64,000 bases of DNA from Candidatus Cloacimonadota bacterium (GTDB taxonomy: Bacteria > Cloacimonadota > Cloacimonadia > Cloacimonadales > JAJBBL01), in contig JAHYIR010000001.1 of assembly GCA_019429305.1 (NCBI GenBank), positions 62,001 through 126,000 of the forward strand, in the 5' to 3' direction. The notes beneath the pieces were generated by a model. The model was given only the letters and a program-made list of their open reading frames with translations, was not told where the DNA came from and did no database searches. Both the position numbers and the translations under genes were made by a program. Every line of letters begins with the position of its first letter. The first letter of the stretch is position 1. Positions 5,456-11,594 of this stretch are shown here, one piece after another.

Positions 5456-6244
5456 CTATTTAATCAGCTCATATCTTAGCTGTTCCCGGTTGTTAAAGAC
5501 ACCTTTTTCTACTAAGAATACGAGCAAAAAGAGTGAAATAGCCGCAGCCGACGAGATCATATACATGATCAGAAGTTGATATTTAACAGATTCAATAGGA
5601 GCTACTCCACCGAGGATCTGTCCTGTCATCATACCGGGTAGTTTAACTATTCCGAGAACCATTAAAGCATTTATTGTCGGTATTAAACCTGCCTTGATAG
5701 CACTCTTACGAATAACTTCCAAAGATTGACCTTTCTTAGCACCGAGTGAAAGTTTAGCTTCTACTTCATGCCTGCGGAGTCTTAATTCACTGCCAAAGGT
5801 ATTAAGGCAGATCGAGATGGCGGTCATAGTATTGGAGATCACCATGGCACTTATAGGAATGACATATTGCGGGTTATACCAAGGGGTGATCTGCAATACT
5901 ATATAGAACATAAAAGCCAGAGGTAGGGCAGTTCCGACAACCATCGAACTCAGACAGCAAAAGAAGGTCTTACTGGGACGGAAATCGATCCTTTTATAAC
6001 TGTCGTAGGTAGCGAAGGTGATCATGATGCTGATCATTAAAACGGTGAAATACCATTTTTGTAGATCGAATATCCATTCCAGCACATAACCCATAATAGT
6101 CAATTGGGCAAAGGAACGAACAGTTCCCAACAGAACACTTTTAGTAATGCCCAGCTTGTTAACCAAGGCAATGATTGCTACTATCAGCATTAATGACACT
6201 GATATTATCAAGGAAGTGTTAGAAATAACTATATAATCATTCAT
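5456..6244 (-). CDS. fetB: FetB-like ABC permease (UPF0014 family)
   Basis: About 262 residues with roughly seven hydrophobic segments spread along the chain. Typical family features: KLGITKSVLLGTVRSFAQLT near residue 31, and the cytoplasmic block RLRRHEVEAKLSLGAKKGQS followed by LPGMMTGQILGG. FetB pairs with the FetA ATPase; in E. coli the pair is proposed to export iron and to improve peroxide resistance. ATG at 6244 is used; an in-frame GTG lies at 6250. The start overlaps the 3' end of fetA, indicating translational coupling. The substrate here is not proven. Confidence 0.85.
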   Translation of the reverse strand: MNDYIVISNTSLIISVSLMLIVAIIALVNKLGITKSVLLGTVRSFAQLTIMGYVLEWIFDLQKWYFTVLMISIMITFATYDSYKRIDFRPSKTFFCCLSSMVVGTALPLAFMFYIVLQITPWYNPQYVIPISAMVISNTMTAISICLNTFGSELRLRRHEVEAKLSLGAKKGQSLEVIRKSAIKAGLIPTINALMVLGIVKLPGMMTGQILGGVAPIESVKYQLLIMYMISSAAAISLFLLVFLVEKGVFNNREQLRYELIK

Positions 6245-6950
6245 ATTCACCTGCCATAAATCTCTTTATAATGCTGTTATCGCTCTCTTGTATCCCTTCA
6301 GGGCTTCCTTCATAAACTATTGTGCCTTCCCAGATAAAGAATATCCGGTCAGAGACAGATAGAGCATCATTCATATTATGACTAACCATGATGACGGTCT
6401 TACCGAAATCTGTTTTTAAAGAGCGGATCAGTTTCAGAACCTTGTTAGCTCTTTGCGGATCAAGAGCAGAGACCGGCTCATCGAGCAGTATTGCTTCCGG
6501 GTCGAGGAGCAGAGAGCGAACTATACATATTCGTTGTTGTTCGCCAATTGAGAGCTCATTACCGGTCTTATCCAAATATTTGACCGGTATATCGACCTGC
6601 TGAAGTACTTTTATGATCTCATCTCGGCTATAGCTCTTTTTTCTGATCTTAAAACCGAAGACGAGATTATCATAAACGGTACCTTCAAAAATAGTCGGCT
6701 TTTGAAAGATCAAGCCAACCTGAGATCTGATCTCGTAAGGATGAAGTTCTGTATGAGGTTTACTATCATAATAGATGGTTCCTGCTTGTGGATCTTCCAG
6801 AGCAGCCAGTAGGCGTAACAGAGTTGATTTACCACTGCCGGAAGGTCCTATGATCGTATTAACTGATTTTACTGCAAAGTTAACACTCAAATCATCAAAA
6901 ACAATATTGTCTTCATAAGCTGCTCTAAGCTTCTCACATCTGATCTCCAT
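6237..6950 (-). CDS. fetA: FetA-like ABC transporter ATPase
   Basis: A 237-residue nucleotide-binding subunit. Walker A GPSGSGKSTLLRL near residue 36, Q-loop VGLIFQKPTIFEG, signature LSIGEQQR, Walker B AILLDEPVSALDP and switch-region His in MVSHNM. Ribosome-binding site GGAG upstream of the ATG. It overlaps fetB and begins 47 bases after the ABC exporter gene at 6998, so the four transporter genes may form one transcript. The FetA assignment rests mainly on its coupling to the FetB permease. Confidence 0.85.
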   Translation of the reverse strand: MEIRCEKLRAAYEDNIVFDDLSVNFAVKSVNTIIGPSGSGKSTLLRLLAALEDPQAGTIYYDSKPHTELHPYEIRSQVGLIFQKPTIFEGTVYDNLVFGFKIRKKSYSRDEIIKVLQQVDIPVKYLDKTGNELSIGEQQRICIVRSLLLDPEAILLDEPVSALDPQRANKVLKLIRSLKTDFGKTVIMVSHNMNDALSVSDRIFFIWEGTIVYEGSPEGIQESDNSIIKRFMAGEYE

Positions 6951-6997: not shown

Positions 6998-8752
6998 CTA
7001 TTTTGCCTGATAATGCTCCTGTATAAAGCTGGAATATTCCGGATATTGCTGCATTATGTTTCTATGTTCACCTTTGGCGATCAAATAACCGCTGTCAAGG
7101 AAGATGACATTATCTACATAACGGAGAGTCGAAAGTCTATGTGAAACTATAAAGCATGTGATATCACCAAACCTTGCAGAGATATCATTCCAAAGACTCT
7201 CCTCATTGTCAGCATCTAAACTGGCAGTAATATCATCGAAAATCAAGATCTCCGGTTCTCTGATCAAGGCTCTGGCTATGGCTAATCTCTGCTTCTGACC
7301 TCCGGAGAGAGTCAATCCTCTTTGCCCTACTCTCGTCTCATCCCTTTCCTGAAAACTCATGATCTCTTTGTCCATCTGAACTATATCCAAAACAGAACGA
7401 TAGAACTCTTCAGAGACGCTTTCCCTGCCGAAATGGACATTCTCTCTAATACTGCCGGAAAAAAGGATCGGTTCTTGCGGTACATACCCTATCTTATCAC
7501 GGAAAGCGGGTAGATCTATCTCATCCAGTGGTATATCATTGATCTTGATCACTCCGCTTTGTGGTCTCAAGAGACCGGTCAAAAGCCCTAAGATCGTACT
7601 CTTTCCTGATCCTACCGGACCGATGATGATAACTCTTTCGCCTCGTTTGATGTGAAAAGAGACGTTGTTCAGGATATGTAACTCCTGCTTCTCGTAAGAG
7701 AAGTTGACGTTCTCGAAGGTGATCGAATCTACCTTCTCGATACGGTGTTTTAGTACTCTTGGATCTTCCGGTTCAGGGAACTCTCTTATCTCTTCCAGAC
7801 GGTCAATATTAACAAATGCCTGTTTCCCTGAGACGAAAAGCTGTGGTAGATCGAGAATAGGGAAGATGATCATCGCCAGATAAGTGTAAAAGGCGAAGAA
7901 GGTTCCTATTGTTATCTGGTGACTGACCACCATAATCCCACCGAATATGATCACAGCGATCTGGCCAAAATAATCTATAAACTCATAGATCATTCGTAAT
8001 CTTGTGTTGAGAGTTACTAACCTCATCTCTGTATTATATCGGTTCGTAAGAGCTCTGTCGAAGAATCTCTTGTATTTCTCTTCGCAAACAAACGCCTTGA
8101 TTATCTTGATCCCTGAAAAGCTCATCTCAAGCTGATTATTGATCTCACTGACCGCCTCCTGATTATGCTTGAAAGAACGGTGTAATTTATTAGAAGTGAA
8201 ATAGAAAATCACTATCATAAGTGGTAGTGGAATCAATGTCAACAGGGTCAATTGCCAGTTTAAGAGTAACATTGCCACAACACAAAAAGCGATCTTACTA
8301 AATGATTCTATAGCACGGAATATACCCGAACACATAAACCAAGCGATCTTAGGCCAATCTGTGATATCGCTTGTTAATCGTGTTACCAGATCACCGGTCC
8401 TGAATTTATTAAAGAATTTGAAATCCTTTCTGAGTATGTAAGCAAAATACCTGTTTCTTAATGTATATTCGAATGTCAGGTTCATTAATGCTCGAAAACC
8501 GGGGTACGTTGCCGCCAAAAGACGTACCAGTCCAATAACTATAAACACCCAAATTATTTTTTGTAACTCGGGAGTTATTCCGGTCAGTTCTGCTGGGTCA
8601 CTGAGCATGTTTTGTATTGTATCAAGAAGCTGTTTTATTACATAAGGGTATATCACCGTCACTGCTGCCGAAATCAAAGTCAGAGAGAGCAGTAGCACTA
8701 TATAGAAAGGGTGCTTTTTCCATTCTCGTAACAGCCATTTTATATTCTTCAT
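6998..8752 (-). CDS. Heterodimeric ABC exporter subunit with degenerate Walker B
   Basis: 584 residues: a six-helix exporter transmembrane domain (about 1-310) fused to an ATPase domain (about 340-575). Walker A is GPVGSGKSTILGL and the signature is canonical (TLSGGQKQRLAIARAL), but Walker B reads LIFDDITASLD, with Asp where the catalytic Glu belongs. Its partner, encoded 26 bases upstream, has a normal Glu but an altered signature. This is the pattern of asymmetric heterodimers such as TM287/288 and BmrCD, where one ATP site is inactive. Likely an inner-membrane multidrug or lipid exporter half. The substrate is unknown. Confidence 0.9.
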   Translation of the reverse strand: MKNIKWLLREWKKHPFYIVLLLSLTLISAAVTVIYPYVIKQLLDTIQNMLSDPAELTGITPELQKIIWVFIVIGLVRLLAATYPGFRALMNLTFEYTLRNRYFAYILRKDFKFFNKFRTGDLVTRLTSDITDWPKIAWFMCSGIFRAIESFSKIAFCVVAMLLLNWQLTLLTLIPLPLMIVIFYFTSNKLHRSFKHNQEAVSEINNQLEMSFSGIKIIKAFVCEEKYKRFFDRALTNRYNTEMRLVTLNTRLRMIYEFIDYFGQIAVIIFGGIMVVSHQITIGTFFAFYTYLAMIIFPILDLPQLFVSGKQAFVNIDRLEEIREFPEPEDPRVLKHRIEKVDSITFENVNFSYEKQELHILNNVSFHIKRGERVIIIGPVGSGKSTILGLLTGLLRPQSGVIKINDIPLDEIDLPAFRDKIGYVPQEPILFSGSIRENVHFGRESVSEEFYRSVLDIVQMDKEIMSFQERDETRVGQRGLTLSGGQKQRLAIARALIREPEILIFDDITASLDADNEESLWNDISARFGDITCFIVSHRLSTLRYVDNVIFLDSGYLIAKGEHRNIMQQYPEYSSFIQEHYQAK

Positions 8753-8778: not shown

Positions 8779-10539
8779 TTATCCCGCTTCTTCCTGATGC
8801 AGGAATTGTAATTCAACTAACTTTTTGTACTCAGGAGAACTAACTAGTAGTTCATTATGAGAACCCTGATCAATAATTCTTCCGTCTTGGAAGAGCAATA
8901 TTTTATCGGCATTAACGACTGAAGATAGCCGATGTGCTACGATCACAGCCGTCTTATCGTGTAAGATCGTTTCTATTGCTTTCTGAATTCTCGCTTCAGT
9001 ACGAATATCAACAGAGGCAGTAGCTTCATCGAGAATGATCAATTCCGGTGAAAAGACCATTGCCCGGGCGAAACTGAGAAGTTGTTTCTCTCCCACAGAA
9101 ACATTCTGTCCCCGCTCTTTGATCTCCGAATAGATACCATCAGGTTGCTTCTTAAGGAAATCATCAGCCCTTACTATATGTAAGGATTTTTCGATTTCCT
9201 GCTCTGATATGTCATCATTATAGATACGGATGTTTTCTCTGATATCACCGGGGAAAAGATAGATATCCTGCAATACTAGACCAATCTTCTGACGCCATTT
9301 TTTCATCTCCAGTTCATTCAGATTGATTCCATCAACATAAATACCACCTTGCTGTACCTGGTAAAACTGACAGAGCAAGCTTACTGTTGTCGTTTTTCCG
9401 CTCCCGGATGCTCCGACTAAGGCAATTTTCTCACCTTTATTGATCGTGAAGCTTACATCTTTCAGAACCCATTCATCTTCTTTATACTGAAACCAAACAT
9501 TGCGAAACTCTATTTTCTCATTGAAATGAGGAGTAATTGAGTTCTTTAAGCCATCTGTTTCAGGTAGTAAAGCGAGTATTCCAAAGATCCTCTGTAGCGA
9601 GGCAAAAGCACGCTGGATCTGATTAATGTTTTCCGAGATCATTAAGAGAGGCCAAAAGATCCTTTGAGAATACTGGACAAAGACAATCAATGTCCCGATT
9701 GTAACTGCACCGATTAGGATCTGTGGTACCATCAAATATACGAGTAGTACTACAATTACCGTTTCTAACAAGAAACCGTATAAACCCCAAAAACTGTATT
9801 CGGTAAACATTGCCCGAGCATCAATATTCTTCTTCTCTCGAGCTTTTTCATCTAAGATCTTTGCTACTTTATCCTGACGGTTAAATAACTGTATGATTGA
9901 TATGCCTTGAATATATTCCGTCATAACACCTGTTATATCGGCGTTTAATTCTCTTACTCTCCTAAAAAAACGACTCAGATAGCGAGCTACGAAGAAAACG
10001 CTAACTACTATGATCGAGATAGGGATCATGAGAATGATAGTAATGTTCCAGTTCCTCAGAAACATTACAGTAACCATTCCGGAAAAGAAAAGAAGATTAC
10101 CCAAGATCATGACAGATAGTTCGGAAAAGAGTTGTCTGACATTCTCACAATCACTTTCTACACGAGCTATTAATTCTCCTACAGGATTATAATCAAAGTA
10201 CTTCACCGGTAGCTTGAGAAAGTGATCAAAGACCTGAAACTTCAAGCGGGTGATGATCTTTACTCCCATCTTAGCTAAAGTGATGATCTGAAAATAGGTC
10301 AAAAGACCGGAAACTACTACTATTCCTACAAATAGTCCGGCATAGAGATAGAGCTCAGATATATTCTTATCAGGAACAATATGATCCAATATATGAGCTA
10401 TGATCAGCGGATCTAACAACCTGAGCACCGATGTGACTAGCATCATCGAGAGTCCGGCAATAAATAACCACTTCTCTTGCCAAATGTATGGAAATAGCTT
10501 CTTAACTATCTTAACATCGAACTTCTTTTTCTTCTCCAT
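8779..10539 (-). CDS. Heterodimeric ABC exporter subunit with altered signature motif
   Basis: 586 residues with an exporter transmembrane domain (about 15-320) and an ATPase domain (about 345-580). Walker A GASGSGKTTTVSL, Walker B ELIILDEATASVD with the catalytic Glu intact, switch His in VAHRLS. The signature is VSVGEKQLLSFARA instead of LSGGQ. With the partner's Asp-type Walker B this gives one degenerate and one working ATP site. ATG at 10539 with AGGGAG upstream. The out-of-frame ATG at 10546 is not used here. The start lies 25 bases after an intrinsic terminator that is itself preceded by a small leader ORF, suggesting attenuation control. Confidence 0.92.
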   Translation of the reverse strand: MEKKKKFDVKIVKKLFPYIWQEKWLFIAGLSMMLVTSVLRLLDPLIIAHILDHIVPDKNISELYLYAGLFVGIVVVSGLLTYFQIITLAKMGVKIITRLKFQVFDHFLKLPVKYFDYNPVGELIARVESDCENVRQLFSELSVMILGNLLFFSGMVTVMFLRNWNITIILMIPISIIVVSVFFVARYLSRFFRRVRELNADITGVMTEYIQGISIIQLFNRQDKVAKILDEKAREKKNIDARAMFTEYSFWGLYGFLLETVIVVLLVYLMVPQILIGAVTIGTLIVFVQYSQRIFWPLLMISENINQIQRAFASLQRIFGILALLPETDGLKNSITPHFNEKIEFRNVWFQYKEDEWVLKDVSFTINKGEKIALVGASGSGKTTTVSLLCQFYQVQQGGIYVDGINLNELEMKKWRQKIGLVLQDIYLFPGDIRENIRIYNDDISEQEIEKSLHIVRADDFLKKQPDGIYSEIKERGQNVSVGEKQLLSFARAMVFSPELIILDEATASVDIRTEARIQKAIETILHDKTAVIVAHRLSSVVNADKILLFQDGRIIDQGSHNELLVSSPEYKKLVELQFLHQEEAG

Positions 10540-10563
10540 TGCTCATTTCTCCCTGTTCAGTGC

Positions 10564-10597
10564 AAAAAAAAACGCCGCAGGATGGTACCCGCGGCGC
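10564..10597 (-). terminator. Intrinsic terminator in the leader of the ABC exporter genes
   Basis: Read on the minus strand: CGCCGC (10596-10591), a 12-base loop region, GCGGCG (10578-10573), then nine T residues. It stands between the leader ORF (10618-10701) and the exporter ATG at 10539. It could terminate mscS transcripts or act as an attenuator for the exporter; its position 25 bases before the coding start favours attenuation. Confidence 0.8.
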
Positions 10598-10617
10598 TAC
10601 TAAGTTCTCTTTTCAAT

Positions 10618-10701
10618 TTAATTGGCGATGGGACACCTATTCCTCTGATTAATGATCTTCTGAGTGACAATCAATAATGCTCTATCTTTTCCCATTTCCA
10701 T
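10618..10701 (-). CDS. Putative 27-residue leader peptide upstream of the ABC exporter
   Basis: ATG at 10701 preceded by GAGGAG (10716-10711) with a 9-base spacer, 27 codons, TAA at 10620-10618. The peptide begins MEMGKDRALL and ends RNRCPIAN. The region round its start codon (10698-10710) can pair with its own last codons (10618-10631) as a 13-pair stem with a single bulge. An intrinsic terminator follows 20 bases after the stop. The order leader ORF, terminator, BmrCD-type exporter matches ribosome-mediated attenuation as known for Bacillus bmrCD with its bmrB leader. Translation is inferred, not shown. Confidence 0.55.
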   Translation of the reverse strand: MEMGKDRALLIVTQKIINQRNRCPIAN

Positions 10702-10787
10702 CGCAATTAACTCCTCATAATTTTGCAACTAAAAAAAATATCAGGTGTTCAGATGTCAAATGTTTTTTATTTTTTCTTGCTATCTCT

Positions 10788-11594
10788 TTACTGATTCTTC
10801 ACATGAACATCCATCTGTGGGAATGGAATGCTGATATTATTCTTATCAAATTCTTCTTTTACCTGTTCGGTAACATCAAAAAAAACTGTCCAATAATCTT
10901 CGGTATTTGCCCATGCTCTGACAGTAAAGTTCAAAGAGCTGTCAGCTAATTCTCCCAATCTGATAAATGGTTCGGGGTCTTTATGGATCATTTGATGTCT
11001 ATCAATAACACCTTTGATGATGCCCTTTACTTTCTTGATGTCAGAATCATAACTTACACCAAATTTGAAATCAACACGTCGCTTCCCTTCGGTTGTGTAA
11101 TTAGTTATCACACCGCTCATTATTTGTGAATTTGGGATGATGATGGTTTTATTATCAAAAGATTTAAAGACTGTACTAAACATACTAATGCTGTGAACTG
11201 CACCTAATACACCGGCAGCTTCTACTGCATCTCCAACTCTGAAGGGTTTAAAAAATATTATCAATAAACCTGCAGCAAAGTTCGCGAGAGTGCCCTGTAA
11301 GGCAAAACCAACAGCTAAACCAGCAGCACCAATAACTGCAATGAAAGATGTCGTTTCAATCCCTATCTGCGAAAGTGCTGCCAAGATGACAAACACCCAG
11401 AGTATAATATTGATCAAAGATGCAGTAAACGTTATTATAGCTTTTTCAATGAGTCTTTTACCCATGATTTTGATAATTAACTTTCTGATAAACTTGATTA
11501 CAATACTTCCAACAATCAAGATCACTATTGCCGAAATAAGTCGAATACCGAATGTAGACCCCCACTCCATGATTTGTGGTACTAATTCTTCCAT
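10788..11594 (-). CDS. mscS: MscS-family mechanosensitive channel
   Basis: About 268 residues. Three hydrophobic N-terminal segments, the third holding the pore-lining Gly/Ala-rich helix AAGLAVGFALQGTLANFAAG, followed by IIFFKPFRVGDAVE and the cytoplasmic vestibule domain. It releases solutes on hypo-osmotic shock at the inner membrane. ATG at 11594 is chosen because GGAGG lies just upstream; a TTG four codons earlier would overlap that site. Small MscS size class (E. coli MscS is 286 residues). The gene stands alone on the minus strand, and the exporter leader lies downstream. Confidence 0.92.
   Translation of the reverse strand: MEELVPQIMEWGSTFGIRLISAIVILIVGSIVIKFIRKLIIKIMGKRLIEKAIITFTASLINIILWVFVILAALSQIGIETTSFIAVIGAAGLAVGFALQGTLANFAAGLLIIFFKPFRVGDAVEAAGVLGAVHSISMFSTVFKSFDNKTIIIPNSQIMSGVITNYTTEGKRRVDFKFGVSYDSDIKKVKGIIKGVIDRHQMIHKDPEPFIRLGELADSSLNFTVRAWANTEDYWTVFFDVTEQVKEEFDKNNISIPFPQMDVHVKNQ

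Follow-up and report, generated by a model that had tools for sequence, protein, structure and literature searches.

A probable ribosome-mediated transcription attenuator ahead of a heterodimeric ABC exporter operon in Cloacimonadota

Analysis of a 64,000-nucleotide stretch of a Cloacimonadota genome (hereafter the window) revealed a short leader ORF and an intrinsic terminator ahead of an operon for a heterodimeric ABC exporter. We consider it probable (roughly 0.7) that this leader works as a ribosome-mediated transcription attenuator, by which the exporter would be induced when translation stalls early in the leader, and the assignment to the class of attenuators as such is well supported. 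All elements are located on the minus strand (Table 1), and the comparison comprised the window and two related genomes, G014 and G006. A candidate attenuator had already been proposed at this site in the first-pass annotation, and this reading has held, since the ORF is kept in the relatives and the exporter of the window shows no promoter-like site of its own.

Table 1. Elements of the leader region and the exporter operon with their positions in the window.
Feature	Position	Strand	Remarks
mscS	end at 10788	minus	upstream of the leader, same strand
Putative leader promoter, TTGACA (10759-10754) and TATTTTTTTT (10740-10731)	10731..10759	minus	read from the sequence
Shine-Dalgarno GAGGAG of the leader ORF	10711..10716	minus	9 nt ahead of the ATG
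Leader ORF, 27 codons, MEMGKDRALLIVTQKIINQRNRCPIAN and stop	ATG 10701, stop 10618	minus	
Protector (region 1), leader start and codons 1-4	10690..10710	minus	predicted to pair with the ORF end in the absence of a ribosome
GGTGTCC (region 2), putative 5' strand of the antiterminator	10631..10637	minus	core codons of R-C-P; invariant in three genera
GGGTACC (region 3), putative 3' strand of the antiterminator	10584..10590	minus	overlaps 5' arm and loop of the terminator
Intrinsic terminator	10564..10598	minus	stem 10598-10588/10581-10571, loop TACCAT, U-tract to 10564
ABC exporter half 1, BmrD/YheH- and TM288-like	8779..10539	minus	Walker B LDEATASVD, non-canonical signature SVGEK
ABC exporter half 2, BmrC/YheI-like	6998..8752	minus	degenerate Walker B FDDITASLD, signature LSGGQ

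The leader ORF with its good ribosome-binding site and the terminator ahead of the exporter were both recovered as the first-pass annotation had described them. The stem-loop consists of 11 pairs, eight of them G-C, its stem begins about 20 nt after the leader stop codon, and the terminator lies 24 nt upstream of the exporter ATG. In the leader, ATG occurs in frame twice, as codon 1 and as codon 3 (10701-10693, minus strand), and such an M-x-M start is also present in G014. The putative leader promoter resembles the boxes ahead of the tRNA genes of the same genome, which are preceded by TTGACA and, about 12-20 nt further on, by TTTG or TTTTTTTG (a T-run ending in G); TTGACA is also found upstream of the leader in G014 and G006. 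On the minus strand of the window, no terminator was detected between mscS and the leader and no promoter-like site between leader and exporter, where the terminator leaves 24 nt of space, so that transcription of the exporter through the terminator is the simplest reading. Independently of the leader, the tRNA promoters (L210-L239) with TTGACA and a downstream TTTG or T-run recall the -33/-7 type of Bacteroidetes, and these boxes can serve to model promoters of Cloacimonadota.

In regard to the exporter, the nearest relatives of half 1 among solved bacterial heterodimers in the PDB were TmrA, YheH (BmrD), and TM_0288, and half 2 matched YheI (BmrC). One member of the pair has a degenerate Walker B Asp and the other a non-canonical signature, as is characteristic of heterodimers of the BmrCD/TM287-288 kind. 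Judging from these features, the exporter is probably a drug pump of this type. Directly after the exporter pair, genes for an ABC ATPase and a permease (6237-6950 and 5456-6250, minus strand) were noticed, which by eye look like a metal exporter of the FetAB/YbbL-YbbM kind.

The closest orthologues of the exporter were found in two other genera (locus L003 in G014 and L004 in G006, 66% identity), and both have a leader ORF and a terminator upstream as in the window, with the second half-transporter following the first in all three. The genes upstream differ, namely mscS in the window and a serpin-like ORF on the opposite strand in G014, and the distance from the terminator to the exporter ATG varies (24, about 148, and about 300 nt in the window, G014, and G006, respectively), which indicates that leader and terminator travel with the exporter. 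In a held-out test, a covariance model built from the window and G014 found the element of G006 at the right place with 36.3 bits (E 2e-4), the next match in 182 kb of exporter loci reaching 18 bits. Further copies in the window's own genome were detected neither by blastn nor, with E <= 1 as limit, by the covariance model. When the order (107 genomes) and the phylum (125 genomes) were searched, only the window, G014, and G006 scored strongly; the next matches had at most 38 bits, and no GGTGTCC ahead of a U-tract was seen in those of their loci that were retrieved. The more distant exporter orthologues (48-55% identity) do not carry the element. Thus, from these searches, the leader-terminator unit appears as a narrowly distributed, exporter-linked element. 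A pattern scan of IMG/VR with more than 120 loci was discarded, as its hits were judged to be chance matches of a loose pattern. A different arrangement was seen in family f10 of the order (L008-L025, L027-L029, and similar loci), where most exporter orthologues lie directly after a tRNA-Pro gene (CGG anticodon) with a TTGACA promoter; no comparable leader ORF or terminator was found at these tRNA-Pro loci, and tRNA and exporter are possibly co-transcribed.

While ORF and terminator are kept in the relatives, the peptide is not. The three leader peptides (G014, MSMLPNFNPVVILAIRAKIIFGERCPKQ; G006, MKILTIMVSPLGIYAGVATALPRRRCPSL) diverge except for a C-terminal R-C-P, with the ends FGERCPKQ in G014 and RRRCPSL in G006, and this motif is encoded by the invariant GGTGTCC. 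The leader Shine-Dalgarno sequences are GGGAGG, set further from the ATG than usual, in G014 and GAGGAGG in G006. Apart from the terminator, GGTGTCC is the main fixed block, and its reading frame, which gives (R)-C-P, is shared by 3/3 sequences. The stop codon follows 5-6 codons after the Arg, from which it follows that a terminating ribosome covers GGTGTCC, and the terminator stem lies 31-32 nt from GGTGTCC in the three sequences. An ORF with a good Shine-Dalgarno sequence that reads GGTGTCC in frame and stops soon after occurred in 26 of 4000 shuffles; the principal support comes from the conservation of the element in the two other genera. In regard to codon choice, Arg is encoded by NGG and Cys by TGT in 3/3 sequences, NGG making up 15-26% of the Arg codons; given the peptide and local codon usage, the joint chance of this is about 0.0009 if only the peptide mattered, so that the RNA seems to be constrained beyond the peptide. 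The leader peptide revealed no Pfam or NCBIfam match. At the Rfam gathering score, no riboswitch, T-box, or attenuator family was found and only tRNAs reached the threshold in the window; a T-box reading was rejected. With relaxed thresholds, RsaE, SpF11, and ncS54 appeared as weak terminator-like matches far under threshold.

No fully convincing antiterminator had been seen in the first-pass annotation; a candidate was now found in the pairing of GGTGTCC with GGGTACC, extended by additional pairs in the window. The corresponding partner on the terminator 5' arm and loop is GGGCAC in G014 and GGACAC in G006, the latter within a 10-pair helix (GAAGGTGTCC/GGACACTTTC). Pairing as good with all three terminator arms was reached by 26 of 3000 random 7-mers, and the 60 nt that precede the terminator gave better partners than shuffles did (15/400, 2/400, and 0/400 for the best duplex in the three leaders). 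Synonymous recodings paired with the terminator arm to the same extent in 63/300 (window), 183/300 (G014), and 15/300 cases (G006), so that the extent of pairing does not stand out by itself. In the window, none of 300 synonymous recodings exceeded the difference between the ON and the untranslated state, which is exceptional in this sequence only. These figures come from three sequences, among which GGTGTCC does not vary.

The behaviour of this helix was modelled in ensembles in which the transcript was folded before the terminator 3' arm is made and a ribosome masks the RNA to +14 of the P-site codon. In the window, the predicted antiterminator probability is 0.07 without a ribosome, 0.77-0.87 when one occupies any of codons 1-17, and 0 from codon 20 to the stop; with a footprint of 12 or 17 nt, this limit moves by roughly a single codon. 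So broad an ON zone suggests that the leader senses slow translation in general. For the G006 leader, the prediction is ON up to codon 20 and OFF after it, and ON also without a ribosome. In G014, GGTGTCC is used only when the ribosome stands near codons 17-19, and a second, stronger candidate exists in CCCGTGGT (codons 8-11), which pairs at 8 positions with the terminator arm GCCACGGG and is accessible only without a ribosome or with one that has come no further than about codon 4. An antiterminator is thus predicted in all three sequences and a clear anti-antiterminator only in the window; since the G006 leader is ON without a ribosome and G014 prefers CCCGTGGT, a three-state switch is clear in the window only. 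In energy terms, the truncated antiterminator folds (-12.4, -7.6, and -9.8 to -15.3 kcal/mol for the three sequences) are less stable than the folds with the terminator (-27, -21.3, and -18.5 kcal/mol); at equilibrium, the terminator always wins. The exact antiterminator helix is moderately supported, because recodings often pair comparably and an OFF state without ribosome is predicted in the window only.

Between the leader start (10710-10698) and the ORF end (10631-10618), there is complementarity over 13 pairs with one bulge, as the first-pass annotation had noted, and this helix alone has -11.4 kcal/mol. It is not the form of lowest energy (-17.7 when forced versus -20.9 for the free fold), for in the free fold codons 2-4 (ATGGGA) pair with TCCCAT; in both folds, leader start and ORF end are paired with each other. 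Its former interpretation as a control of the leader's own translation was replaced, as it is better read as a protector of the antiterminator arm. The match between CCATC in the terminator loop and GATGG at the leader start, also pointed out before, does exist. An exceptional stability of the overall fold had been expected, but comparison with shuffles did not bear this out (z -1.26 and -0.41), so that stability by itself is no proof.

Based on these elements, we propose the following course. RNA polymerase would start at the promoter after mscS and make the leader. An undelayed ribosome would reach the stop codon and cover GGTGTCC, the terminator would fold, and transcription would end before the exporter (OFF). 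When the ribosome is halted or delayed within about the first 17 codons, as with 50S-targeting drugs or other translation stress, GGTGTCC would stay free and could pair co-transcriptionally with the 5' arm and loop of the terminator before the 3' arm is made, leading to read-through (ON). An untranslated leader would also be OFF through sequestration of GGTGTCC by the start region, a state predicted in the window's species only. That drugs are sensed in this way is suggested by the exporter type and by analogy to bmrB, mef(E), and toiL (PMC4191407, PMC4335068, PMC12121999). As a tentative extension, which we rate somewhat below even odds, the three loci may represent a lineage-specific class of Cloacimonadota in which GGTGTCC serves both as the R-C-P codons and as antiterminator arm, and in which the leader senses early ribosome delay instead of acting as a drug-specific arrest peptide.

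An attenuator in which R-C-P acts as a peptide, with ligand-dependent arrest of the nascent chain near this motif as in TnaC, appears unlikely to us. R-C-P is indeed all that is conserved in the peptide, at 2-3 residues from the C-terminus, and its AGG and CCC codons are rare in this genome; Arg and Pro also occur in several known arrest motifs. However, a ribosome standing at R-C-P covers GGTGTCC and leaves about 19 nt up to the terminator, which should favour termination, the codon choice for R-C is constrained beyond the peptide, and the N-terminal parts of the leader, which would be the ones in the tunnel, are not conserved. A low probability is likewise assigned to a terminator that just ends the mscS and leader transcripts, with the ORF as a stand-alone small gene or small RNA and the exporter expressed by leaky read-through or from elsewhere. 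The missing terminator after the same-strand mscS gene would fit this, as would the roughly 300 nt between terminator and exporter in G006, which offer space for another promoter, but across genera the unit goes with the exporter and not with mscS, no promoter-like site precedes the exporter in the window, and both the terminator distance and the stop codon stand in a fixed relation to GGTGTCC. Amino-acid starvation control of the trp/his kind shares the architecture of short ORF, protector, antiterminator, and terminator; it was rejected as very improbable, because the three leaders show no regulatory codon run or common codon excess, the regulated gene is an exporter and not biosynthetic, and stalling at the conserved Cys/Pro codons would block the antiterminator.

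Transcription attenuation by a leader peptide is a known kind of control for drug exporters, described mainly in Gram-positive bacteria, and a literature search in a restricted collection found no earlier report of such attenuation from Cloacimonadota. We know of no studies on the antibiotic responses of this phylum. A conserved case would extend leader-peptide attenuation of drug exporters to an uncultured phylum. A freely diverging peptide combined with one fixed RNA arm would also allow a clean test between peptide-specific and general sensing of stalling by synonymous and compensatory mutations.

Among known systems, bmrB-bmrCD of Bacillus subtilis shares the short translated leader and intrinsic terminator before a heterodimeric multidrug ABC exporter. 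For bmrB, an anti-antiterminator was predicted along with an antiterminator of lower stability than the terminator, and a start-codon mutant was OFF (PMC4191407); a weaker antiterminator is likewise predicted here, and anti-antiterminator and OFF state without translation are predicted in the window. The proposed mode of action is thus that of bmrB. The anatomy differs, and in this respect the comparison with bmrB in the first-pass annotation was corrected: the terminator of bmrB lies inside the leader ORF (PMC4191407), whereas that of the window follows the stop codon with a conserved spacer. Moreover, the host belongs to Cloacimonadota and not to Firmicutes, the D-like half precedes the C-like half in reversed order relative to bmrCD, and the leader has no recognised protein family. 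For its terminator position beyond the ORF and its leader without a known family, we did not file it as a bmrB homologue. The streptococcal mef(E)/mel operon is also a drug-efflux operon under transcription attenuation by leader peptide and Rho-independent terminator, and its leader Mef(E)L (MTASMRLR) is required for macrolide induction, but this leader is shorter and of other sequence, the transporter family is different, and several stem-loops are involved (PMC4335068). Trp-type attenuators, from which the window leader differs in having no regulatory codon run, share three competing helices read by ribosome position and a stop codon adjoining the antiterminator arm. Finally, the toiL uORF of Escherichia coli affects translation and Rho-dependent termination ahead of a toxin-antitoxin operon, which is different from the window leader, but it is proposed to report stalling at many positions (PMC12121999), similar to the predicted ON zone of the window leader over codons 1-17.
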